Notes under the pieces: generated by a model | The model's database searches: none | What the model was told of the DNA's origin: nothing | What the model saw: the letters and a program-made list of their open reading frames with translations, nothing else | Program-made: the position numbers and the translations under genes | Shown here: positions 1,002 through 13,694 of the stretch, piece after piece | How positions within the stretch are numbered: the stretch's first letter is position 1 | Layout: each line of letters opens with the position of its first letter | Source: Methanomethylovorans hollandica DSM 15978 | GTDB taxonomy: Archaea; Halobacteriota; Methanosarcinia; Methanosarcinales; Methanosarcinaceae | Length of the DNA: 64,000 nucleotides | Direction: 5' to 3' | Assembly (NCBI RefSeq): GCF_000328665.1 | Contig: NC_019977.1 | Location: 1,240,001-1,304,000, forward strand

Positions 1002-1316
1002 TCAAATAAAATCAATACTTATGCTCCCTGCTTCTTTAGTAAGGGAATTCGACATGAAACCCGCTTCAATACAACAAACGTGCATAACTGCACAAGGCAC
1101 AAGGCATGTAGAAGTGCATCTCGCTTCCCTGGCTTTTCCCATAACAATGTTCTCTTTTATATCAAATAGATCCATCATTGGAACCTCCAGATGAGATATC
1201 TTTTTAATCTTCTCACAAGGTGTATCGATATCTACAATCACATTCTGCCCATCCATTCTTCCCTTAATGATGTGGGTGAACCCGCATATCCTGGAATTGA
1301 CTTTTGCTTCTGTCAT
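1002..1316 (-). CDS. Small Cys-rich DUF6951-like protein
   Basis: A soluble protein of 104 residues. It resembles the DUF6951-type small proteins found beside corrinoid methyltransferase genes in methanogens; that assignment is from memory. Cysteines cluster as CGF near the start, then TPC, then a C-rich segment around CTSTCLVPCAVMHVCC, suggesting metal or cluster binding. I chose ATG at 1316 rather than an upstream start at 1352 because AGGAG (complement of 1324-1328) sits 7 nt before it. It is the last gene of the methyl-transfer locus, directly after the RamA-like gene, so a role in corrinoid handling is inferred. The biochemical function is unknown. Confidence 0.65.
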   Translation of the reverse strand: MTEAKVNSRICGFTHIIKGRMDGQNVIVDIDTPCEKIKKISHLEVPMMDLFDIKENIVMGKAREARCTSTCLVPCAVMHVCCIEAGFMSNSLTKEAGSISIDFI

Positions 1317-1361
1317 TGGACTACTCCTGTTGTTTATATATAAGTACCACAAATTAATAAT

Positions 1362-2981
1362 TTAAGTTGTAACCATTATTTCCTTGTAGGTAATAGCATG
1401 CACCGGACATACGCTTATACATCTCTTGCATGCTGTCCCTAGGCATTTTTGGGTACTGTACTTTGCAATGAAATCAGTACCCTTTTCTATATCTATGGCT
1501 TTCTCAGGACATTCTCTTTCACACATATGGCACATTATGCATCCCACTGCAACCTCTTCAAGAGTTGTTCCTATGTCCGTAACCACTTCTATCTGATTCC
1601 TACTGTTTTCATTTATGTCCAGTCTTACCCTTTTCTCAATAATTGGATTATTCAAGGATATCGGCAGTGGGGGCAGTTTATATGCCTTCAGAAACTTGTG
1701 GTACATGTCCATACTCATTCCTTCTGTCCAATATCCGAGCTCGCATGTATAGAACTTCTTAAAAGTATCACTTGTTGCCATCATAAGGTGATCAGCTTTT
1801 ATATGGCTTGCCAGTTCAATAACCGCATCAAGCTTTGCTTCATCAAGAAGTATGTCCCTTGCAAGAGCTAGTGACGTGTTTCCAAATTGCACCGTGCGTT
1901 TTGAGAAGTCAGGACACGACCCAATATTTCTTGCTTTTTTGGCGTCCACATAGGTACCTGAAGCACCGCTCATGTACACATTCTCAAGCTCTTCATATCC
2001 TATCCCCGATTCAACTATGAGAGTTAATTGGGCAGCCCTAATAGCACCTATAGCCTTCCCAGCCTCTTTGATATCCATCTCTGATAACTCTATATTCTCA
2101 CCAAGTATGAGCCGGCCGTATTTTAGTTTAGGAGGATTTGTTATGAGCCCAGTTTCAATGGCAAGAGAAAGTATAGAAATGAGGCCTGTCCCTGTGATTC
2201 CTGCAGGTATTATGCCACTTTTTTCACTTATATTTCCAGTGATAGGGTCAATGAGATGCCCCTTCACAGTTTCCATATTATTGTTGAGTACGCAGATTCT
2301 CCATAAGTTCCCCTCTAGGTTCACATCCGTGATCGCTCCCGGCCCTGCAAGCATTCCGCAATTTATGCCTTGTCCTTCTATTGCAGGCCCTGCTGCAGCA
2401 CTCCCGGTGATTATTCTATTCCCCACTTTAATGGCCATTTCAGCATTAGTTCCATAATCGGTTACAAGAGTGGGGTTTTCTTGTTTAAGAAAATCTGTCT
2501 CAATCATCATGGCAAGTGCATCTGCACCAATCTCATGTTCAATAGCAGGTGGTACAATGATATCACAGTTCTCAAGGATTAGAGTTTCCTTGAATATCTC
2601 CTTGGCAGGAAATATTCGTGCATCACGCTGTATGCTTTGTATGCCCAGCCTTTTCTGCATGTTCTTTCCTGCATAGGCAAGATCACGTATCTCGGAATTC
2701 TGAAAAAGTGAAAGTTGTATGGGATTGCCACAAACCGCTATCTTCCTTATCTGCGATGAGTCAACGTTGAACCTTTCTACCATTTTCCTGATAGCATCCA
2801 CAATAATTCTGTGTGCTACATCTTCACCTATGGATATAGCAAAGTCAAGATGATCAGTCACGTTACCTCCTGGCAATGGATGTTTCATTGTCATTGAAGT
2901 TTTGGCAACCTTTTTTGTTTCCAGGTCTATCAACTGTGCTCGAAAGCCGCTAGTTCCCAAGTCCAATGCGATACCGTACAT
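1362..2981 (-). CDS. ramA: RamA-type corrinoid protein reductive activase
   Basis: A 539-residue iron-sulfur ATPase of the RamA family. RamA enzymes use ATP to reduce inactive Co(II) corrinoid proteins to Co(I) so that methyl transfer to CoM can begin. The N-terminal part is an ASKHA-like region (MYGIALDLGTSGFRAQ, then VTDYGTNAEMA and TGTGLIS). The C-terminus holds two ferredoxin-like [4Fe-4S] motifs: C481xxC484xxC487xxxC491P and C513x4C518xxC521xxxC525P. Length and domain order match known RamA. A 46-bp promoter-like element (3068-3113) shared with the corrinoid fusion gene lies upstream. Its client is probably the fusion protein encoded at 7953-9857. It may be a RamA paralogue rather than the methylamine-specific one. 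Confidence 0.88.
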   Translation of the reverse strand: MYGIALDLGTSGFRAQLIDLETKKVAKTSMTMKHPLPGGNVTDHLDFAISIGEDVAHRIIVDAIRKMVERFNVDSSQIRKIAVCGNPIQLSLFQNSEIRDLAYAGKNMQKRLGIQSIQRDARIFPAKEIFKETLILENCDIIVPPAIEHEIGADALAMMIETDFLKQENPTLVTDYGTNAEMAIKVGNRIITGSAAAGPAIEGQGINCGMLAGPGAITDVNLEGNLWRICVLNNNMETVKGHLIDPITGNISEKSGIIPAGITGTGLISILSLAIETGLITNPPKLKYGRLILGENIELSEMDIKEAGKAIGAIRAAQLTLIVESGIGYEELENVYMSGASGTYVDAKKARNIGSCPDFSKRTVQFGNTSLALARDILLDEAKLDAVIELASHIKADHLMMATSDTFKKFYTCELGYWTEGMSMDMYHKFLKAYKLPPLPISLNNPIIEKRVRLDINENSRNQIEVVTDIGTTLEEVAVGCIMCHMCERECPEKAIDIEKGTDFIAKYSTQKCLGTACKRCISVCPVHAITYKEIMVTT

Positions 2982-3067
2982 TTTATCCCTCTACCTTTCT
3001 GGTGAAAGTGAAAGGTTCTATGTAATTCACTTTTCAGCTCACCTGCAATCTATATTCTGTATTTTTT

Positions 3068-3113
3068 AATATATAACATAACTCAAGGTAATTTATTAAA
3101 GCAATTAATATTA
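3068..3113 (-). promoter_or_regulatory. Promoter of ramA with an element shared with the fusion gene
   Basis: On the minus strand the element ends in GTTATGTTATATATT, which contains a TATA box. It is preceded by a TAATATTAA...CTTTAAT half. It aligns without gaps to 9935-9980, with 38 of 46 positions identical by eye. Transcription would start near 3040, giving a 5' leader of about 60 nt. This looks like a shared promoter with a flanking regulator site. Confidence 0.6.
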
Positions 3114-3225
3114 CTATACGTACTAATTTAATCACTCGCGTTAATCTTATTAATGGGTTTGACAGCATGATCAAAGACGAAAGCATTGGCTGTTTCGAGA
3201 AGAATGACTATACAACTGAATAGGT

Positions 3226-4227
3226 TTATAGTAAAAGTTGTGAGTAATACTCATCTCTTGCTTGAACAAATGCTCTTATGTTCCTAGTTGGTGTACGAGG
3301 TGCTATTCCACAACTAGGGGCAAGTACATCTATCCCTTCCTTCAAGCATTTAAAAACCTCTGACTTGACGTTATCAGGCGACCCGAAAAGTAATGTGCCA
3401 GATGTAGAGATATTTCCAATGAGTTTTACTCTGCTCCCAATTATAGATTTGGCATAATTAAGATCTTTTACTTTCTCTTCAACACTTATGCCATCAAAAC
3501 CACAAGCTGCAAGTGAACGAAGAATAGGGTTTGCATTTCCGCACATGTGGAGTACCTTTATACCTTTCACACTTCTGCAGAAACGCTGATACTCTGGAAC
3601 CATGATATTTTCAAAGATAGACGGACTAAGCAGATCCGGGCCTGCAACACCATCAGATATCACTATCACATCTGCACCTTGATCGGTGAGTGCATTAGCA
3701 TATTCAATGCATGCATCCGTGGTAATTCTAAGTAGTTCAATAAGCTTATCAATAGATTTCATGGTCCAAATTAGATAATTATCGACACCTGCAAGATGTG
3801 ATGCGACTGTAGCAGGTCCTTCCAGGCCTACAATTATAGGCAGATCATCCCCTACAGTTTCCTTTAGAAGAATTGTGGACTCCAGCACCACGGAGATCCT
3901 TCCTTTTTCTATGAGATTATCTGGTACTTTGATCGCATCTATATTCTTTGTAGCTGGATGGGATCTTATAGAGGGCTGTATATCACAAGTTCCCATGTTC
4001 ACTTCACATCCCATGGCTTGGGAAAGGATTGTGAGACAGTATGGTATCCTAACGGCCTCCAGCCCACCTGTACGATTGCCTTCGATTGCCAGTAAGGCCA
4101 TCTTTTCTGGATTTATATGTGCCTCGGGCCAGGAGGAGCCTGAGATATTCATAAGTTCCACAGTACCTGTCTGAGTAAAGGAAAGTGCAGGAACCCTTGA
4201 TACTGGCTTCTCTTTAAACACATACAT
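3226..4227 (-). CDS. MtaA/MtbA-like methylcobamide:CoM methyltransferase
   Basis: 333 residues, URO-D fold. The family moves a methyl group from a methylated corrinoid protein to coenzyme M, forming methyl-CoM for methanogenesis. The zinc site is complete: H227-x-C229 (LHMCGN) and C306 (APSCGIAP), the HxC...C arrangement of MtaA and MtbA. FTQTGTVELM near the N-terminus is also typical. The nominal start at 4227 has no good Shine-Dalgarno, and the frame is open upstream to 4302 without a standard start codon, so a few N-terminal residues could be missing. It lies 65 bp after the chaperonin gene. It may accept the methyl group made by the fusion protein; the substrate is unknown. Confidence 0.85.
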   Translation of the reverse strand: MYVFKEKPVSRVPALSFTQTGTVELMNISGSSWPEAHINPEKMALLAIEGNRTGGLEAVRIPYCLTILSQAMGCEVNMGTCDIQPSIRSHPATKNIDAIKVPDNLIEKGRISVVLESTILLKETVGDDLPIIVGLEGPATVASHLAGVDNYLIWTMKSIDKLIELLRITTDACIEYANALTDQGADVIVISDGVAGPDLLSPSIFENIMVPEYQRFCRSVKGIKVLHMCGNANPILRSLAACGFDGISVEEKVKDLNYAKSIIGSRVKLIGNISTSGTLLFGSPDNVKSEVFKCLKEGIDVLAPSCGIAPRTPTRNIRAFVQARDEYYSQLLL

Positions 4228-4292
4228 AAGATTTGTTCTTAGTGAGTTAGGTATGTGAGATCCCCCTATCGGTATCTTAAACCTTTCTTTTC

Positions 4293-5897
4293 CTACTTTC
4301 TAGGTATGATCTTGTCTATACGAAGAACGCTTATAGTGGCATCTGTAGCGGATATCACTGCTAATTTTTTAACGGCTGCCGAATCATATACAGGTGATGA
4401 TTTTCTCGTCATCTTACTTAAACAATCAACTTTGGCATCTACACCTATATTATAGTAGTTTTCCATCATAACCATAGTATCAATAACATTAAGACCCATA
4501 TTCTCTGCAAGTATTTTCGGAATCTCTTCAATGGCCTGTGCATATGCAATGACAGCAAGCTGCTCTTTTCCACTGATGGTAGAAGCATATTGTTTTAACA
4601 TCTGTGCAATCTGGAATTCAATCCATCCTGCACCTTTGACCACCATCCTGTCCTTTATCATGAAGGCAGCATTATTGAGAGCATCATCTATTGCCTCTTC
4701 AACTTTTTCAAGTCCATAAATAAAAGGCTCCCAAATGACGATGGTGGATATAGGCTGATTCTTTACTGAAACAAAAGCAAAGTATTCACCATTCTTTTTT
4801 TCTACTCGCACCTCATCGGCCATTCCAAGATCATGAGGCATGATCTCATCTTTTATTGATACAACGCTGGAACCTGTAGACCTTGCTATCTTTTCGAGGT
4901 CTTTCATCTTAAGTTTTTTGAAGAGCAGTATGTTCTTACGTGCAAGCATTTCTTCCACTGAAGGATCCACATCTCCTTCAGAGAACACCGCATTTGCTCC
5001 AGTAGATATGATTTTATTTGCAAATTCTCGAACATGCATTTTAAGCTCTTCTTCAAACAAATGGGAAGTCTCCCAAGTGTCCATGCGTATATTGTGCTGC
5101 GCATTCAGGATACTGCTTTTAAACTTTGTTTCGTAATTAAGCACCAGAACCTGTGCATTTGTCAGATGATAGGGCATGTCCTCCCTTGCTGGTTTTTCGT
5201 CGAGAATAACTCCTGTTAGTTTCAAAAATGAGGGGCCACCCACCTTTTTGAGTATTTTCACGTTTTCTTCCAAGTCAAGGCGTTCTTCAATTTTTGTACG
5301 TTCAAGATTCGTGATTATCTCCAGTACTGCATCGCCTATCTCCTTCGCCTTGGTATATTCTAAGCCTTTGCTTAAAGCAGCGTTTAAAACTACAGAAAGA
5401 GTGTCCTCCGGAGAGATCACCGGAAAACTCTCATACTCCAGGATCTCGTACGCTTTGTTAAGAGCCATTTGATATCCTTTTACAATTGAAGTTGGATGTA
5501 TTCCCTCTCGCATTAGTTTTACTGCTTTAATTATCATTGAAGTTGCAAGGATCATCGCAGTCTTTGTTCCATCTCCAGTTGCCTTGTCCATAGCTTTAGC
5601 AATTGATTTTAGCGAAGTCACAAACGGATGTAGCACATCCACTTCCTCAATGATAGTTTTCCCATCGCTTGTAAGGTAAATATCTCCTACATAATTGATG
5701 ATGACTTTATTGAGTCCCGATGGTCCGAATGAAGAACATAACAATTCTTTTATGTCAATAGATGTACTTTCCAAGTGGTCAATAAGTTCTTGCTCTTTCA
5801 CCTCACCGACTATACCTACCCTTCTACGTACACTTTCCCTAAGCGTAGCCATATTATCCAGTTCACTGCCGTAGGTTGAAGCAGTTGTAGTGTTCAT
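4293..5897 (-). CDS. Divergent group II chaperonin (thermosome-like)
   Basis: 534 residues, alignable over the full length with archaeal thermosome/CCT subunits, which form double-ring ATP-driven folding machines. Recognisable motifs are FGPSGLNK (57-64), TSDGKTI (76-82), GDGTKTA (108-114) and VVKGAGWIE near the C-terminus. It departs from housekeeping thermosomes: GDGTT is GDGTK, NDGAT is SDGKT, the usual RGG-like turn before the last equatorial segment is WEPF, and the Gly-rich C-terminal tail is absent. ATG at 5897 follows a strong AGGAGGT, and the gene overlaps the upstream ASKHA gene by 4 bp (ATGA). Its position in a methyl-transfer operon suggests a specialised client, perhaps the corrinoid enzyme. 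That is inference. Confidence 0.85.
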   Translation of the reverse strand: MNTTTASTYGSELDNMATLRESVRRRVGIVGEVKEQELIDHLESTSIDIKELLCSSFGPSGLNKVIINYVGDIYLTSDGKTIIEEVDVLHPFVTSLKSIAKAMDKATGDGTKTAMILATSMIIKAVKLMREGIHPTSIVKGYQMALNKAYEILEYESFPVISPEDTLSVVLNAALSKGLEYTKAKEIGDAVLEIITNLERTKIEERLDLEENVKILKKVGGPSFLKLTGVILDEKPAREDMPYHLTNAQVLVLNYETKFKSSILNAQHNIRMDTWETSHLFEEELKMHVREFANKIISTGANAVFSEGDVDPSVEEMLARKNILLFKKLKMKDLEKIARSTGSSVVSIKDEIMPHDLGMADEVRVEKKNGEYFAFVSVKNQPISTIVIWEPFIYGLEKVEEAIDDALNNAAFMIKDRMVVKGAGWIEFQIAQMLKQYASTISGKEQLAVIAYAQAIEEIPKILAENMGLNVIDTMVMMENYYNIGVDAKVDCLSKMTRKSSPVYDSAAVKKLAVISATDATISVLRIDKIIPRK

Positions 5898-7828
5898 ATG
5901 GACCTCCTTGGAGAGCCCACAGCTATTCCCAAGATTTTGGTTTCAATAGGTATCGCACCGATGCTTCCTATATCATTATGTTCAAGTTCAACTCTGACAT
6001 TATCCATACTTAATCCGTATCCTGCCATATAATCTGAAATAGAACTACTTACAAGGGCATTTCCCTTCTCAAGAGCTTCTTGATAGTCGTCGAATATGTA
6101 TCTTCCTTTATCCGAGAACAGTAGACACTGTAAACTACCGGGACCTGCCGGACGTATCAGAACCTCTTCTCTATATACTACATTGCCTACAAGAGCACCA
6201 ACAGCATTTCCAACTTCATGATATTTTGGAGCCCGTATATCTGCTTCAATAAGACCCTGCAGATCCTTCAGATATGCAGTTACAGGTGCGCCGACCATAA
6301 CCACAGGAGGTATTATCATGAATTTTGTCAATTCTGAACCATCCAGTATTTTTTCGACATCTTTTTTCTGCATCTTTCCAGTGCAATAGGAAATAAGATG
6401 AAGTGCAAAGTTCCTAGCTACTTCTTTTTTGACGTTTGTACAGAATTCGAAATCTACCATTGAACAATATTTTGAAAGAATCTGAGATCCCAACATTGAA
6501 GCGTCAGATTCCCACTGTTGATAATCACCAAGGACGTGCAGGGCATCGGTAGGAGTGAAACCCACCTGCTTTATGTATCTTTTCTGTATGAGTTTTCTCA
6601 GGATACCTTCGAACATGAGAGGATGTCTATTTGTTTTTGAGGCAATATCTGATATAGAGGAAGGCTCTTCTGTGATGGCATCAAGTATTTCCATTTCTTC
6701 TCCTTCTAGTTCAGAGGCATGCAAGCAGTGTGACTCTACCCCATTGCTCATGAAAAATGTTGTTGGCTGGATGATATCACTCATAATACGTGTCGAAATA
6801 TTCTGTACACTCTGTAACTTACTTATTATTGATGGGAATTCAGTAGCACAAAGGCATAAGGGTATGACCCTATTAGGCCCTATATACATTTTTTCTTGTA
6901 GCCATACATGACTGTCTCCCCCCATAGCGGAGGTATCCATTTTGATGGCTTTGACCATTGTTTCCCAGCCACCCACCACAGCACCGGAACTGCTGATGTC
7001 AGGCATACCCTTGTGAATCATAGAGATATCCGTACTAGTACCCCCCACATCTATAGTTAAACAGTCCTTGAGGCCGGATAGATGTGCTGCACCCAGCAGG
7101 CTTGCAGCAGGTCCTGAAAAAATGGACTCCACAGGTTTTTTCAATGCCTCTTCTATCCTTACCAGTGACCCATCACATTTCATCATCATTAAGATTGAAT
7201 TGATACTTTTGTCTTCCATTACAGATTGTACGGACCTTATAAATTGATCTATAACTGGAATAAGCTGAGCATTAAGAAGTGCAGTCAATGCCCTTTCATA
7301 GGCTCCCAGATTCATGGAAAGCTCATGACCGCAGACAACTGGGAGATTTGTTAAGTTCTGTATGGTCTCTTTGATTCTCAGCTCATGTTCCGGGTTACGG
7401 ACCCCAAAATACGATGATATAGCAAATGAAGAAACCTTATATTGATTCTTTATTACAAATTCCCTTACAATCTCCAACTTGTTCAGAGGTTCTACCTCAT
7501 TTCCATTGGCATCATGTCCACCGTCTATGGAAAGAACATAATCAGTGGGAAGTTTACGAGGTATGTTATAACCAATAAGTATGAGACCTGCAGGATATCC
7601 TTTTCCCTCAAGGGTTGTGTTGGTCGCAAGTGTAGTAGATACTGAAGTGAACTTCACGCACTCAAGATATTCAGCTTTAAGCCCATCAATTGAATTTCTT
7701 ATGCCCTGTATTAGGTCCGGATAAGTAGTAAGCGACTTGTTTGCATCTATTATAGATCCGTCTGCAAGGTCCATGATAACAGTATCTGTATATGTGCCAC
7801 CGGTGTCAATACCAAGTCCTAATTTCAT
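5894..7828 (-). CDS. Hydantoinase/oxoprolinase (HyuA)-like ASKHA ATPase
   Basis: About 644 residues. The N-terminus has the ASKHA phosphate motif GIDTGGTYTD, and a second motif IDVGGTSTD lies near residue 256. The family includes ATP-using hydantoinases and 5-oxoprolinases, and the wider fold includes corrinoid and B12-enzyme reactivases. Residues ~375-430 form a helix-rich insert (EILDAITEEPSSISDIAS...) that looks like a winged helix. I chose ATG at 7828 (7831 is equally possible) because GGTGAT lies just upstream; an upstream ATG at 7876 lacks a binding site. The stop overlaps the chaperonin start (ATGA), implying coupled translation. No hydantoin pathway genes are near, so an amidohydrolase role is unlikely and a reactivase-like role is my inference. 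Confidence 0.8.
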   Translation of the reverse strand: MKLGLGIDTGGTYTDTVIMDLADGSIIDANKSLTTYPDLIQGIRNSIDGLKAEYLECVKFTSVSTTLATNTTLEGKGYPAGLILIGYNIPRKLPTDYVLSIDGGHDANGNEVEPLNKLEIVREFVIKNQYKVSSFAISSYFGVRNPEHELRIKETIQNLTNLPVVCGHELSMNLGAYERALTALLNAQLIPVIDQFIRSVQSVMEDKSINSILMMMKCDGSLVRIEEALKKPVESIFSGPAASLLGAAHLSGLKDCLTIDVGGTSTDISMIHKGMPDISSSGAVVGGWETMVKAIKMDTSAMGGDSHVWLQEKMYIGPNRVIPLCLCATEFPSIISKLQSVQNISTRIMSDIIQPTTFFMSNGVESHCLHASELEGEEMEILDAITEEPSSISDIASKTNRHPLMFEGILRKLIQKRYIKQVGFTPTDALHVLGDYQQWESDASMLGSQILSKYCSMVDFEFCTNVKKEVARNFALHLISYCTGKMQKKDVEKILDGSELTKFMIIPPVVMVGAPVTAYLKDLQGLIEADIRAPKYHEVGNAVGALVGNVVYREEVLIRPAGPGSLQCLLFSDKGRYIFDDYQEALEKGNALVSSSISDYMAGYGLSMDNVRVELEHNDIGSIGAIPIETKILGIAVGSPRRSI

Positions 7829-7952
7829 CATTATCACCTGATTCAGAGGAGACGGGGTGTTTTTGCCACCCGCCATGGATATAGACTTTTATATGAATTT
7901 CACTCACATTATAAAAATAAATAAGAAAAAGCAGGGGAAGTGAAAAACCTGC

Positions 7953-9857
7953 TTATCCGAATATCTGCTTTTGGAGAACGGGACCAAGTTCCTTGACCGT
8001 GTCCACCATTGCTTTTACAGTTGTGAGGGGTCCTCCTGGTGGTATCTCACAGCCAGATGTCATGATATACTTGGACTGCATGCCGTTCTCCTTGAGTACA
8101 GGAAGCACGCCTTCAAGCAAATTCCGTGTGTCGTCCTTTATCTTCTGAACGCCTGCAGGAGAATTATCCATGAACTGTACTGGGTTGACTTCTCCCATCA
8201 TACAGCAGATGTCACCATATTTGGGAATAAGATCGGCATAGTTCTGCGATCCTTTAGCCCTCAGATTGGGGTAGTATGCGTAACTGAACAACTTTGTCCC
8301 GAATTTTTTGATCTGGGTGTCGTAGTGTACTGCATCAGCACAGCTGTGGATGGTGTAGGGCTGGTCGTATTTTTTGAACAACGGCAGATGCTGGTCATAT
8401 ATGAACTTTCCGTCGAACTTCCAGTAATCCTCCTCGCTCATGATCACGTTGTTGGACCATAGGTTATCGATACATAACGCATTGCAGGCATTTTCCTCAA
8501 AGAACAGCTCAGATACCTGACAGATATAGTCGGTACATTTTTGGACTGCCTCAAGCACTACCTCAGGATGCGTCTTCATGTCCATAAGAACGCGATCAGC
8601 TCCCATAAGCTGGGTAAGGGCAAGCAGAGGGCCTTCATGGAATCCCACAAAAGGTGTGTTCAGTTCCTTGTTGAGCTTCTCAGTGGCCATCTTGGAGGCC
8701 ATCACAAGCTCATAGGAACGAGTGCCTTTCTTGACATCTGGTACTTCGATCTGCTCGTAATCCTTCAGATGGCCTTCCGAAGAAGGAGTGTCGTCCTCAG
8801 GATACTTAATCTTACATCCAAAGTCGGCCGATGTAGCTGAAAGATCTATAAGTCCCACGAACATGTCTGTGTCCAGGTATTTGGATCCCAGATATGCACT
8901 GTCAACGAACGCCTTAGGATTTGTGGCATATTCCTTGTAACTGACGTTGGCAAATTTCCTCAATACACCACAGGCTAAAGGATATACCGGCAAACGATCG
9001 ACCTTCTTGTCTGCCATAGCTGCAAGTGTTCTATCCATATGGGTCATTGCTTCCTTTTTCTTGACACCGACTTTCTCGAAATCTGCAATGATCTGCCTTG
9101 CGGTCTCCAATCCTACGTCTGTCTTCCCCTTTACTTTCTTTTTAGCCAGGATCTCTCTATATTTTACCTTGCCCAGTGATATTTTCTCATCATTCCACCT
9201 TTGTTCTGCAGGGACAAGTTTCTGTACTGCACCTTTTGCCCAGTCAGTGGCTTTCATGGCGTCCAGATGCGTGGAATCTGCACCGATCTCTTTTGCGAAC
9301 TCCGGGGACACTGGTGCCCCACCCACCATAACTATCAGGGAGTCCCTGATGCCTTCTTCCTGCAATATCTCTATTACTTTTTCCATGTTCACCATGGTAG
9401 TAGTCATCAGAGCACTCATGGAAACAAGATCTGCTTTTTTCTCCTTGGCGGTCTGAACGAATTTCTCAATAGGTACATCGTGTCCGAGATCTATCATATC
9501 AAAACCTGATGCAGAGAGCATAGTCTTAACAAGATTCTTCCCAATGTCGTGGACATCTCCCTCAATAGTCCCTATAACTCCCACAGAACGCTTACCAGAG
9601 TCCTCAGATTTCATGTGGGGGGCAAGGATATCCATGCCAGCATACATGGCACCGGATGCAATAAGAAGATTTGGCACAAAGGCCTCGCCTTTTTCATACA
9701 TGTCACTGATTATTGTCATTCCTTTTGCGAGTCCATTCACAATAGCCTCGTAAGGATCTATGCCTTCTTTAAGAACTTTGTTTGCAAGTTCTTCTGCCAA
9801 TTCTTCGTCACCTTCTACTACAGCTTCCGCTAACTGGTTCATTATAGCTACTGTCAT
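7953..9857 (-). CDS. Corrinoid protein fused to a URO-D-type methyltransferase
   Basis: 634 residues. Residues 1-215 are a MtaC/MtbC-like corrinoid module: a helical cap, then GTIEGDVHDIG with H103 as the expected cobalt ligand, then MVGGAPV. Residues ~265-634 are a URO-D fold methyltransferase with zinc-site residues H504-x-C506 (TIHSCAD) and C603 (TSGCEIP). This layout recalls the fused corrinoid/methyl-transfer proteins MtsD, MtsF and MtsH (CmtA) of Methanosarcina, which act on methyl sulfides, but the protein looks longer and the MT domain differs, so the substrate is open. ATG at 9857 follows GGAGGT. A 10-bp inverted repeat sits in the leader and a strong promoter element lies at 9935-9980. 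It heads the methyl-transfer operon. Confidence 0.88.
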   Translation of the reverse strand: MTVAIMNQLAEAVVEGDEELAEELANKVLKEGIDPYEAIVNGLAKGMTIISDMYEKGEAFVPNLLIASGAMYAGMDILAPHMKSEDSGKRSVGVIGTIEGDVHDIGKNLVKTMLSASGFDMIDLGHDVPIEKFVQTAKEKKADLVSMSALMTTTMVNMEKVIEILQEEGIRDSLIVMVGGAPVSPEFAKEIGADSTHLDAMKATDWAKGAVQKLVPAEQRWNDEKISLGKVKYREILAKKKVKGKTDVGLETARQIIADFEKVGVKKKEAMTHMDRTLAAMADKKVDRLPVYPLACGVLRKFANVSYKEYATNPKAFVDSAYLGSKYLDTDMFVGLIDLSATSADFGCKIKYPEDDTPSSEGHLKDYEQIEVPDVKKGTRSYELVMASKMATEKLNKELNTPFVGFHEGPLLALTQLMGADRVLMDMKTHPEVVLEAVQKCTDYICQVSELFFEENACNALCIDNLWSNNVIMSEEDYWKFDGKFIYDQHLPLFKKYDQPYTIHSCADAVHYDTQIKKFGTKLFSYAYYPNLRAKGSQNYADLIPKYGDICCMMGEVNPVQFMDNSPAGVQKIKDDTRNLLEGVLPVLKENGMQSKYIMTSGCEIPPGGPLTTVKAMVDTVKELGPVLQKQIFG

Positions 9858-10307: not shown

Positions 10308-11093
10308 TTACATATATGTCACTTCATGTGACTGCTCCCTGAAATGCTGAAATAGATCCTCTCCCCAAATCAGTGATTTCTCTTCAAAGCTCATCATTAC
10401 ATGATTATGGAACATGCCTGTCTTATAAAATAAAGCAAATGAAAAGAATTTATCTGTTACTACGCTTGATGCGAGGCCTATAGTTTCGTTACAAACAAAA
10501 AGCTCGGTATTTTTTATTCCAAGATAAACCTGCAATTGTTCAAAATACTCGGTTTTAAATCTCTCAAATACAGGTTCAGTTATTATGAGCGAAATTCGTA
10601 CTCCTTTACGAGCAAGGTCAACATATTTGTAGGGATATTCAGGGCTGAAAGAAGAGGATACTTCCATTATAAACTTCGATTCATTAAGTTTGTCAGTAAA
10701 TTTTTTGGGTAACTCATACATACGATTCAGATCTGGTTCAACTAGCTCGCATTCACCCAATTCCTCAATCCTTTCAAGAAGATGCGAAGGAATAGCATTT
10801 ATTTTATGGTTTTCCCAATATTCCTTATTATCAGCAAAGACTCTTAACGTGTTTAAAAGAGGTATCATCTTCTTTACTATAACTTCTCCAAAGCTTGAAA
10901 GTTCGTACAAATCGTTCTCGTAGAAGATAATACCTTGGTCGATAAGTATCTTAATCTGTGTCATCATGGAACTGGAAGTAACATCCAGTATGTCTTTGAT
11001 CTCATCAATACTGAGAGGCTTTTCTATTAAGAGAAGGAGGAGATCTTTTCTTTTGTCGGATAGAAATAGAGTACCTAACAAAGGCAGTTTCAT
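10308..11093 (-). CDS. Msr/FilR1-type transcriptional regulator
   Basis: 261 residues from ATG at 11093, chosen because GGTGAT precedes it; an in-frame upstream codon at 11108 would add five residues. An N-terminal winged helix (about 1-90; SIDEIKDILDVTSSSMMTQIKIL) is followed by a FilR1/DUF1724-like sensor domain (about 130-260; MEVSSSFSPEYPYKYVDLARKGVRISLII). Msr proteins control methanol and methyl-sulfide methyltransferase genes in Methanosarcina. Here the gene lies between a sensor kinase-like gene and the corrinoid fusion gene on the same strand, so it probably controls that operon, perhaps through the 46-bp promoter element. Confidence 0.82.
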   Translation of the reverse strand: MKLPLLGTLFLSDKRKDLLLLLIEKPLSIDEIKDILDVTSSSMMTQIKILIDQGIIFYENDLYELSSFGEVIVKKMIPLLNTLRVFADNKEYWENHKINAIPSHLLERIEELGECELVEPDLNRMYELPKKFTDKLNESKFIMEVSSSFSPEYPYKYVDLARKGVRISLIITEPVFERFKTEYFEQLQVYLGIKNTELFVCNETIGLASSVVTDKFFSFALFYKTGMFHNHVMMSFEEKSLIWGEDLFQHFREQSHEVTYM

Positions 11094-11177
11094 TTTAATC
11101 ACCCACAATTTGACAGTTTAATTGAACTTTATATTATATTTTTAAATCAATGCTCTGTAGTTCTCTAGTTCTTAATC

Positions 11178-13694
11178 TTAACACAAATTATCCTTACAAA
11201 TGGGGAGTTTTATGTGAAAAGTTGTACCCTTTCCCATCTCACTTTCAATCCATATTTGACCCTGATGTGCAAGAATTATGTTCTTAGATATATAAAGGCC
11301 GGATTCAAGACCTTGGTACCTACGACTCATAGAGTCTTCCATCTGATAAAACTTATGGAAAAGATGAGGTATGAGGTCTTTCTGTATACCGGGACCGGTA
11401 TCGGTTATCCTTATGTGCTGATGTTCTTTTTCTTCACTTAGATCTATACTAATTCTACCACCTACAGGAGTGAACATGACGGCGTTATCAATGAGATTAA
11501 TGAACGTCTCTGTCAATTTATCTCTGTCAGCTCTTACAGTAGATAACTCCTTAGGAATATTTGTATCTACAATGATCATCTTTTCATCTATCAGCAATAT
11601 GAGATTCATCAAAGCTTCTGAAATGAGATTATCTATATGAACCGGGAAGAAAGAATATTTAATCTTCCCAGCTTGTTCCAGGCTCATGTAGAGGAGTGAA
11701 TCGACCAGTCGTTTCAGTCTTTCTGAATTTAGCATAACAGAGTCGATAGATTTTGCTTGCTGATCATCTATGACCCGGATGGTTTCATCATCCATAATAC
11801 TACACTCGGTCTGTTCTGCCTCGAATAAATCCATCCTTTCGGCAACAAATTCAGTTTTCATTCTTCTGATTGATCTAAGTCCCTTGTTTGCCTTTGTGAG
11901 CTCTTCTGAGTATTTTTTCAGGGCATCTTCCATCTGTTTTCTCTGTATCAGACTCCACATCCCCTGCATCAACAATATAAGCTGACGCAGATCGGAGTCG
12001 TTGTATTCCTCTTCTTTGTTACCTACACCTACAACGGCAATTATATGATCTCCATCGAAAATTGGAACATTCATGTGTCTTATAAGTTTCACATGATCTT
12101 CCGGGTATCCTTTCTTCATGGTATTGGGTGCGGGATAATCATTTGTTATTATAGGTTTACGCTGTCTTACTGCTTCACCCCAGAGACCGGTAGTTTTTAT
12201 TGGATAGATGAAACGTTTATCTTTGATCCCGCATTCTTTCATGGCACTTTCGGACCAGGAGTGCATTATGAGCTCTGTTTCATCGGCGTTCATAAATGCA
12301 AGATATCCCAGTGTGCTTTCAGTAAGCTTCACGGCTTCTTCTCTTGCAAAGTCCGTGATTTCTTCTAATGACGAACCTACCATTCCATTGAGTTTTACGA
12401 GAGCATCCAGACGCTTTTCTTCAAGTTGACTCTTTCTCTCTGCCTTTTTGCGCTCAGTGATATCCCTAGCAACAGAGAGTACCATTTTCTTTCCATTATA
12501 CACTATGAAACGTGCATTGATTTCCAAGGGTATAATTGTACCATCTTTAATTATTGCTTCTGTTTCATATATGGCTCGACCCTTAGTTTCTATAATTTTT
12601 AGAAGCTCTGGCATACGCTGTAGGTACTTAGAAGTAACTATGTCTACAGGAGAAGTACTTAATATCTCTTCCTTACTGTAACCTAGTGTATCCACGACAA
12701 CTTGGTTCACATAAATCAGTTTTCCATTAAGTTCACTGATGTATAGTTGATCGTTTATGCTATTGAAAATACCTTTCAACTTTTGCTCTGATTCACAAAG
12801 AGCATCTGTTGCTATTTTGTGATTTATTGCGATTGCAGCAAGATTGGCGTTGGCTTTGAGGATTTCAATTTCTTCTTTTGTGGGTATGTGAGGTTCACGG
12901 AAATAGATTTCAAAAGTTCCAAGGACCTCGTTATTTGAACTCATGATTGGTTCACAGCAGCTAGATTTAATGCCCACCTGAGATGCAAATTCTTTCATAT
13001 CCTTCCAGTAAGGATGTTCCATTATATTCTCTACGATAATCCTTTTTCCAGTATATGCGGCTGTTCCACAGGAACTACTACCTTCTTCAATGGGTAAACT
13101 TTCGATAGCTTTTTTATAAAAACCTGGAAGAAGTGGAGATATAGCACGAATGAGATGTTTTCTTTCTTTGTCCAACAACATGACAAAACCGATTGATTCC
13201 GGTATTGCCCGCTCTGACATCTTTACCAGATGTGTGAGTACTTCATCCAGAGATGCACCCGAAGCTAATGACTCAAGAACGCGGTTGCGACAGTTAATGA
13301 TTATCTCTGAGAGTTTCCTATTACTTATATCTAAAATGATGCCTTCATAATATTGAATATTGCTATTTTGATCCCGTCTAATAATCGTTCTTTCATAAAC
13401 CCATCTGATATCCCCTGATTTTGTAAGGACTCTGTATTCATGACTGAAATTAGAATCCCCTTCTTTAATGCATGTGGCAAATCGAATATGTATTTCCTCG
13501 ATATCATCAGGATGGATAATATCCTCATATTTAATCTTGCCAGAAAGGAAATCCTCTGGAGAATATCCAAATTGTCGTACATTCTCAGAAACGAATTCCA
13601 CTGGCCATCCCTGTTCTGCTCTCCAGACAAAAATTGTCATCGGGCTTTCATTAATTAATCTTAAGGTTTCAGCGCTAATATCAAATTGTGCCAT
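11178..13694 (-). CDS. PAS-GAF-PAS-GAF sensor kinase-like protein with degenerate kinase core
   Basis: 838 residues, no membrane segment. Approximate order: PAS (10-130), GAF (135-295), PAS (300-415), GAF (430-590), dimerisation helices (600-690) and a HATPase domain (715-832). The layout and position beside an Msr regulator recall MsmS and RdmS, heme-binding GAF sensors tied to Mts methyltransferases. C488 (SAMKEC) in the second GAF is a candidate heme-attachment Cys. The H-box is missing: where the paralogue at 49042-51690 has NVSHEFKTPL, this protein has unrelated residues (VAERMDLFEAEQ). The N-box (NLIDNA) and G1 (DTGPG) are kept, but G2 is GLESGLYIS instead of GGTGLGLYIS. It may signal without classical His phosphorylation. 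Confidence 0.85.
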   Translation of the reverse strand: MAQFDISAETLRLINESPMTIFVWRAEQGWPVEFVSENVRQFGYSPEDFLSGKIKYEDIIHPDDIEEIHIRFATCIKEGDSNFSHEYRVLTKSGDIRWVYERTIIRRDQNSNIQYYEGIILDISNRKLSEIIINCRNRVLESLASGASLDEVLTHLVKMSERAIPESIGFVMLLDKERKHLIRAISPLLPGFYKKAIESLPIEEGSSSCGTAAYTGKRIIVENIMEHPYWKDMKEFASQVGIKSSCCEPIMSSNNEVLGTFEIYFREPHIPTKEEIEILKANANLAAIAINHKIATDALCESEQKLKGIFNSINDQLYISELNGKLIYVNQVVVDTLGYSKEEILSTSPVDIVTSKYLQRMPELLKIIETKGRAIYETEAIIKDGTIIPLEINARFIVYNGKKMVLSVARDITERKKAERKSQLEEKRLDALVKLNGMVGSSLEEITDFAREEAVKLTESTLGYLAFMNADETELIMHSWSESAMKECGIKDKRFIYPIKTTGLWGEAVRQRKPIITNDYPAPNTMKKGYPEDHVKLIRHMNVPIFDGDHIIAVVGVGNKEEEYNDSDLRQLILLMQGMWSLIQRKQMEDALKKYSEELTKANKGLRSIRRMKTEFVAERMDLFEAEQTECSIMDDETIRVIDDQQAKSIDSVMLNSERLKRLVDSLLYMSLEQAGKIKYSFFPVHIDNLISEALMNLILLIDEKMIIVDTNIPKELSTVRADRDKLTETFINLIDNAVMFTPVGGRISIDLSEEKEHQHIRITDTGPGIQKDLIPHLFHKFYQMEDSMSRRYQGLESGLYISKNIILAHQGQIWIESEMGKGTTFHIKLPICKDNLC

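Follow-up and report, generated by a model that had tools for sequence, protein, structure and literature searches.

The window analysed here, a 64,000-nucleotide stretch of the genome of Methanomethylovorans hollandica DSM 15978 (contig NC_019977.1, positions 1,240,001 to 1,304,000), carries a block of methyl-transfer genes in which a divergent group II chaperonin is encoded. Across the family Methanosarcinaceae, this chaperonin gene accompanies the gene of a fused corrinoid protein/methyltransferase (hereafter, the fusion), which we propose as its client.

Gene content and likely pathway of the block

Six genes follow one another on the minus strand between positions 1002 and 9857, in the transcription order fusion, HyuA-like ATPase, chaperonin, MtaA, RamA and DUF6951. 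All six stand where the initial annotation had placed them, and the 4-bp overlap that it had reported between the ATPase and chaperonin genes is present. The extent that it gave to the block was right for these six genes and left out two genes upstream, a regulator and a sensor kinase, which lie on the same strand and are members of the conserved block. The features are listed below by window position (ORF, open reading frame).

7953..9857, minus strand: predicted MtsD-type fused corrinoid protein/methyltransferase, 634 amino acids, with Pfam PF02607, PF02310 and PF01208 in one ORF
5894..7828, minus strand: HyuA-like ASKHA ATPase of the 5-oxoprolinase/N-methylhydantoinase superfamily (ORF 5894-7876; PF05378, PF01968)
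4293..5897, minus strand: Mts-associated divergent group II chaperonin (TCP-1/cpn60, Pfam PF00118, 371 bits)
5894..5897, minus strand: 4-bp ATGA overlap of the HyuA stop and the chaperonin start, the chaperonin ATG being preceded by a strong Shine-Dalgarno sequence, AAGGAGGT, within the HyuA end
3226..4227, minus strand: MtaA-type methylcobamide:coenzyme M methyltransferase (NF040654 equivalog, 490.9 bits, cut-off 400)
1362..2981, minus strand: RamA-type reductive activase of corrinoid proteins (TIGR04270, 747.9 bits, cut-off 500)
1002..1316, minus strand: DUF6951 small Cys-rich protein (ORF to 1352, ATG at 1316 the likely start; PF22263, 80 bits)
10308..11108, minus strand: FilR1-type helix-turn-helix regulator, MsrF/MsrC-like by position (PF08350, 126 bits)
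11178..13694, minus strand: PAS/GAF sensor kinase without H-box, RdmS/MsmS-like (PF13185, PF08447, PF02518)

The other intergenic gaps are 124 bp between the fusion and HyuA, 65 bp between the chaperonin and MtaA, 244 bp between MtaA and RamA, and 45 bp between RamA and DUF6951, counted from the likely start of the latter. The RamA protein combines RACo ASKHA domains (PF14574, PF17651) with a Fer4 domain and two 4Fe-4S motifs, and DUF6951 is found again next to RamA in Methanosarcinaceae relatives. The FilR1-type regulator holds the same position 5′ of the fusion in most loci, and the upstream position of the PAS/GAF kinase is likewise conserved among the loci of relatives. No HELRT-type H-box was found in the sequence of this kinase (11178-13694); absence of the H-box is the defining trait of the kinases RdmS and MsmS of Methanosarcina acetivorans (PMC11784639). 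The block is not a chance arrangement, because it recurs across Methanosarcinaceae and its core of chaperonin and fusion recurs in a second archaeal family. Just 3′ of the block, an ORF resembling death-on-curing/Fic-type toxins lies at 567-854 on the minus strand (TIGR01550, 60.5 bits).

The fusion consists of a B12-binding cap, a B12-binding Rossmann domain and a URO-D/CmuA-type barrel, and in alignments it keeps the corrinoid motif GDVHDIG and a zinc-type HxC...C motif. It is 79%, 68% and 55% identical to the M. acetivorans fusions of the mtsD, mtsH and mtsF loci, respectively, and groups in a fusion tree with the protein of the mtsD locus (Shimodaira-Hasegawa-like approximate likelihood ratio test, SH-aLRT, 99). 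We take these three loci and their locus tags to be correctly assigned from gene order and position. Because the fusion is orthologous to that of the mtsD locus, with the tree in agreement, the locus is, judging from sequence, very likely an mts locus of the MtsD type with a methyl sulfide as substrate. The initial annotation had regarded the substrate as unknown and the locus as foreign to the mta, mtm and mts systems; both views have to be revised. M. hollandica is a dimethyl-sulfide methanogen. In M. acetivorans MtsD favours dimethyl sulfide and MtsF methanethiol, and an M. hollandica protein is listed as the top match for all three of the Mts proteins (PMC7374477).

Published accounts of the M. 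acetivorans Mts system in the openly licensed literature deal with methyltransferases, regulators and kinases and do not mention a chaperonin. We found no account of an Mts-chaperonin link in that literature, so an earlier mention elsewhere is possible; the chaperonin of mts loci has apparently gone unremarked so far.

Two side observations concern the spread and composition of such loci. Methanimicrococcus is described as using methanol and methylamines; its loci (L087, L141) hold the fusion, HyuA and the chaperonin, and it may be capable of using methyl sulfides. In Methanolobus loci (L039, L047, L052 and others), the position behind the chaperonin is held not by MtaA but by a distant URO-D-family protein (23-27% identity).

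Linkage of the chaperonin to the fusion

Relatives of the window chaperonin were sought in 186 genomes of the order. Full-length relatives within the family scored 523-676 bits (481-504 in Methanimicrococcus) and everything else, ordinary thermosomes included, less than 266 bits, broken or partial copies apart. The clade so delimited comprises 61 genes in 47 Methanosarcinaceae genomes. When the surroundings of all 60 relatives of the window chaperonin were compared, 58 loci had a co-directional fusion gene no more than 3.1 kb away, and the contigs of the two other loci start inside HyuA. Immediate neighbourhood to HyuA was seen at 42 of the 60 chaperonins, RamA lay within 3 kb in 21 cases and MtaA within 3 kb in 14. 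The constant partner of the chaperonin is thus the fusion, and not HyuA, RamA or MtaA.

The same tie appears at the level of whole genomes. Among 112 genomes of the family, 47 encode both chaperonin and fusion, none the chaperonin only, six the fusion only and 59 neither (Fisher’s exact test: p = 2e-25, kinship ignored). Within each genus the presence of the two genes agrees, the six fusion-only genomes excepted. In all six of these the contig ends at or beside the expected chaperonin site, and in two of them the first 53-72 codons of the chaperonin stand at the contig break. These breaks rule out the six genomes as true cases of a fusion without a chaperonin. In draft assemblies contigs often end at the chaperonin gene (L094-L105), as near-identical copies would cause, and the linkage therefore appears less complete than it is. 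The single consistent exception to the linkage is the MtsH-type locus, and a few additional fusion copies also stand without a chaperonin, for example the second one in a Methanococcoides genome (G090). The block is accordingly not unique to this genome in its gene order, and the earlier proposal of a specialised chaperonin tied to the corrinoid fusion holds across the family, with 58 of 60 loci linked and no chaperonin in the 59 fusion-free genomes.

A profile search with the fusion in 393 genomes of the phylum returned fusions outside Methanosarcinaceae in two genomes only, both of one other family. At both loci a divergent chaperonin gene lies 8-12 bp behind the fusion and RamA is on the opposite strand; HyuA is absent from both. 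The two chaperonins (L152:8045-9586, L155:2022-3617) join the Methanosarcinaceae clade side of the tree with a support of 100/100, on long branches. In both, Lys replaces the Asp of the NDG motif and the D386-type Asp is changed to Ser or Asn, so that they may be devoid of ATP hydrolysis. Beside one such locus lies an orotidine decarboxylase gene whose product closely matches PDB 4muz (375 bits vs 185 for the next match), a structure that we take to be from Archaeoglobus fulgidus. The second family is, on account of this closeness, probably an Archaeoglobus-like lineage.

The chaperonin clade and its copies

In a tree of 43 rows, from which a wrong ORF (L151) and a long-branch haloarchaeal row were left out, a single branch with a support of 100/100 separates the clade from the housekeeping thermosomes. 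Within the Methanosarcinaceae part of the clade, the catalytic positions are invariant (D78, the NDG Asp; GDGT at 108-111; D404/D405, the D386-type Asp). The lid region is of normal length throughout the clade, and the Gly/Met C-terminal tail is found in no member. The AlphaFold2 model of the window chaperonin (predicted local distance difference test score, pLDDT, 79) has thermosomes and CCT as its nearest folds, the 50 best Foldseek matches all being group II chaperonins. The protein stays below the thermosome cut-offs of TIGR02339 (336/671 bits), NF041082 (329/450) and NF041083 (324/400). The invariant Lys of GDGTKT was considered as a clade signature and dropped, as DGTKT also occurs in another solved thermosome subunit. 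Apart from the Mts-linked gene, M. hollandica has three genes for ordinary thermosome subunits and a fifth, more distant chaperonin gene that looks GroEL-like in sequence. As judged from a ratio of nonsynonymous to synonymous divergence (dN/dS) of 0.07-0.18, the Mts-linked chaperonin is under purifying selection.

Genomes with two mts loci provide a further view of the relation between chaperonin and fusion. The M. acetivorans chaperonin genes of the mtsD and mtsF loci have 95.8% DNA identity and a synonymous divergence (dS) of 0.15, whereas the same gene compared between species has a dS of 0.75-0.85 and the fusions of the two loci share only 55% protein identity. Near-identical chaperonins at the mtsD and mtsF sides were likewise found in two further genomes. 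By these divergences the chaperonin copies are shown to be homogenised within genomes. One copy may also decay: in two complete genomes (G154 and G157) the mtsF-side chaperonin is broken (L092, about 8017-9625; L093, about 8012-9620), with the D-side copy and both fusions intact, and in another genome (G158) the D-side chaperonin is missing and the F-side copy intact. Because the copies are kept near-identical and one of them may decay, one chaperonin probably serves both mtsD- and mtsF-type fusions in trans.

The HyuA-like ATPase shows a looser association. Homology places its true start at M17 (7828) and not at 7876. Its motifs DTGGTYTD and DVGGTSTD are invariant, and its solved relatives are N-methylhydantoinase, 5-oxoprolinase and subunits of acetone/acetophenone carboxylase. 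Membership in the MutL/GlmL-type B12 accessory ATPases was considered and is not supported, the match being short and N-terminal: MutL matches at 30 bits over residues 22-74 only (cut-off 27; 53 of 450 profile positions) and GlmL reaches 28.9/475 bits. With a mean pLDDT of 59, the predicted structure of HyuA was kept out of fold searches. Five paralogs are encoded elsewhere in the M. hollandica genome, and members of the family occur in 103 of the 112 Methanosarcinaceae genomes, chaperonin-free ones included. A HyuA-like paralog of this genome, at L173:7205-9265 (about C2:1661704-1663764), follows mcrA at a distance of 165 bp, in the orientation of an apparently complete mcrBDCGA operon; no HyuA-like neighbour of mcr was present in M. 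acetivorans within the stretch examined. A tandem pair of HyuA-like genes elsewhere in the M. hollandica genome (L170:9150-13074) has a PAS-type kinase and an MttB-like gene in its vicinity, a setting which suggests that the HyuA-like ATPase family accompanies methyl-transfer genes in general. RamA, the canonical corrinoid reactivase and itself an ASKHA protein, is present at the locus, and HyuA is therefore not needed to explain reactivation. The idea in the initial annotation that ATPase and chaperonin act as a paired unit is not borne out: HyuA does not neighbour 18 of the 60 chaperonins, is absent from the second-family loci, has five paralogs in this genome, and occurs as a pair of genes at an MtsH-type locus that has no chaperonin.

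Client of the chaperonin and known systems

We consider it probable (about 0.6) that the block is an Mts demethylation operon of the MtsD type equipped with a group II chaperonin dedicated to one client, namely the folding or maturation of the corrinoid fusion. A dedicated folding or maturation cage is the simplest account, with the fusion, rather than HyuA, RamA or MtaA, as the constant partner. The main client would be the Mts fusion of about 70 kDa, in which a corrinoid domain is joined to a triosephosphate isomerase (TIM) barrel. On induction of the operon, the chaperonin would fold this protein or hold it open for corrinoid loading, and RamA would next reduce Co(II) to Co(I). Dimethyl sulfide or methanethiol would then donate methyl groups to the fusion, which, perhaps with MtaA, would hand them to coenzyme M. 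The chaperonin would act in trans on both mtsD- and mtsF-type fusions.

Expression data lend indirect support to a dedicated chaperonin. By their positions, the chaperonins beside mtsD and mtsF in M. acetivorans would be MA0857 and MA4386, and the latter would lie within MA4384-MA4394. Among the stretches regulated when HdrED is depleted, MA4384-MA4394 is reported as the longest contiguous block (PMC11619418), and mtsD is up about 100-fold when methyl-coenzyme M reductase is limiting (PMC11267899).

Several points weigh against this proposal. From linkage alone, a client of the chaperonin cannot be told apart from an enzyme that acts in the same pathway. The MtsH-type locus contains the fusion, MtaA, the regulator, the kinase and two HyuA genes without a chaperonin, although the genomes with such a locus carry the chaperonin elsewhere. 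Escherichia coli has served as a host for the production of M. acetivorans CmtA (MtsF), so that the need for the chaperonin may not be absolute. Finally, two catalytic Asp residues are lost in the second family; going by these residues, ATP-driven folding cannot be the universal mechanism, unless the subunits of that family mix with housekeeping subunits.

Another possibility, which we entertain only tentatively, is a maturation cage for a B12 enzyme, formed alone or mixed with thermosome subunits, that would enclose or hold the Mts fusion to load the corrinoid or to rebuild the damaged enzyme. In the second lineage the chaperonin would then have degenerated to a subunit without the catalytic Asp residues that serves client binding only.

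Somewhat less likely, the chaperonin may be a specialised subunit that joins the housekeeping thermosome and shifts its choice of clients without forming a cage of its own. The usual C-terminal tail is absent in all members, the catalytic Asp is lost in both second-family versions, one of these genomes keeps two normal thermosome genes, and mixed rings with several kinds of subunit exist in archaea and eukaryotes (PMC6420498). However, with both catalytic Asp columns, GDGT and the lid still in place, a self-sufficient ring is possible for the Methanosarcinaceae members, and this alternative departs from a fusion-dedicated chaperonin in the assembly state only.

It is doubtful that the chaperonin has the HyuA-like ATPase as its client. 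In this view, which gives the ATPase-chaperonin pair of the initial annotation its strongest form, HyuA, as an ASKHA protein with the actin fold, would be folded as actin is by CCT and would itself service the corrinoid enzyme. Group II chaperonins do fold actin, and where HyuA is the immediate neighbour of the chaperonin it is mostly upstream at a very short distance, with the 4-bp overlap in the window. Against this, the 18 chaperonins without a HyuA neighbour include several loci that keep chaperonin and fusion adjacent, no HyuA accompanies the second-family chaperonins, and HyuA paralogs persist in nearly all genomes of the family, with or without a chaperonin.

We regard it as quite improbable that the chaperonin is a stress chaperone of general use, taken into the regulon on account of the damage that methanethiol and dimethyl sulfide do to proteins. 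Mts genes are induced under metabolic stress (PMC11267899; PMC11619418), but a general stress chaperone would be expected elsewhere too, and this one occurs neither in fusion-free genomes nor apart from the fusion gene. Passive hitch-hiking with mts by horizontal transfer, with no functional tie, is the least credible explanation: the block is patchy within genera, as if gained and lost as a unit, and two genomes hold broken copies, but the dN/dS of 0.07-0.18, the persistence of the linkage in a second family despite a different surrounding gene order, and the retention of at least one intact chaperonin copy in fusion genomes with a fully assembled locus all speak against it.

As a rule, group II chaperonins serve protein folding in general, and no clients are known for the extra archaeal subunits. 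The linkage described here gives the “novel chaperonins” of M. acetivorans a specific candidate client and a pathway, and this species is amenable to genetics and has a clear growth phenotype (dimethyl sulfide). A chaperonin dedicated to the Mts fusion would offer a simple system for how a chaperonin evolves client specificity. An overlooked gene would also be added to the pathway from dimethyl sulfide to methane, which would matter for obtaining active Mts enzymes in other hosts.

Compared with MtsD, MtsF and MtsH of M. acetivorans (MA0859, MA4384 and MA4558), the window fusion is identical in kind in domain order and motifs, and the same kind of Msr-type regulator and RdmS/MsmS-like kinase stands upstream. 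The chaperonin shares with the three housekeeping thermosome subunits of its own genome the fold (template modelling score about 0.8 to Mm-Cpn) and the ATPase motifs. It differs from them in belonging to a separate clade at 31-33% identity, in being tail-less and less conserved, and in its place in the operon, to whose genes the thermosome genes are unlinked. M. acetivorans is described as the only known case with five group II genes, and its subunits 4 and 5, termed novel, cluster together and with CCT6 (PMC6420498, citing Maeder 2005). By exclusion, the clade members of M. acetivorans would be these subunits 4 and 5. Whereas they were described as “Novel chaperonins in a prokaryote” (Maeder 2005), the clade delimited here extends over 47 genomes of the family and two outside it, and is tied to Mts fusions. 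The closest parallel in arrangement may be MmoG, a chaperonin encoded in the operon of soluble methane monooxygenase and proposed to fold that enzyme (PMC9324122). In both cases a chaperonin gene lies inside the operon of one C1-catabolic metalloenzyme, and by this analogy the Mts enzyme might require its chaperonin. MmoG is GroEL-like and has no built-in lid, whereas the Mts chaperonin is an archaeal group II protein with a lid region and the enzyme is a corrinoid protein; the parallel is one of analogy and not of a homologous arrangement.

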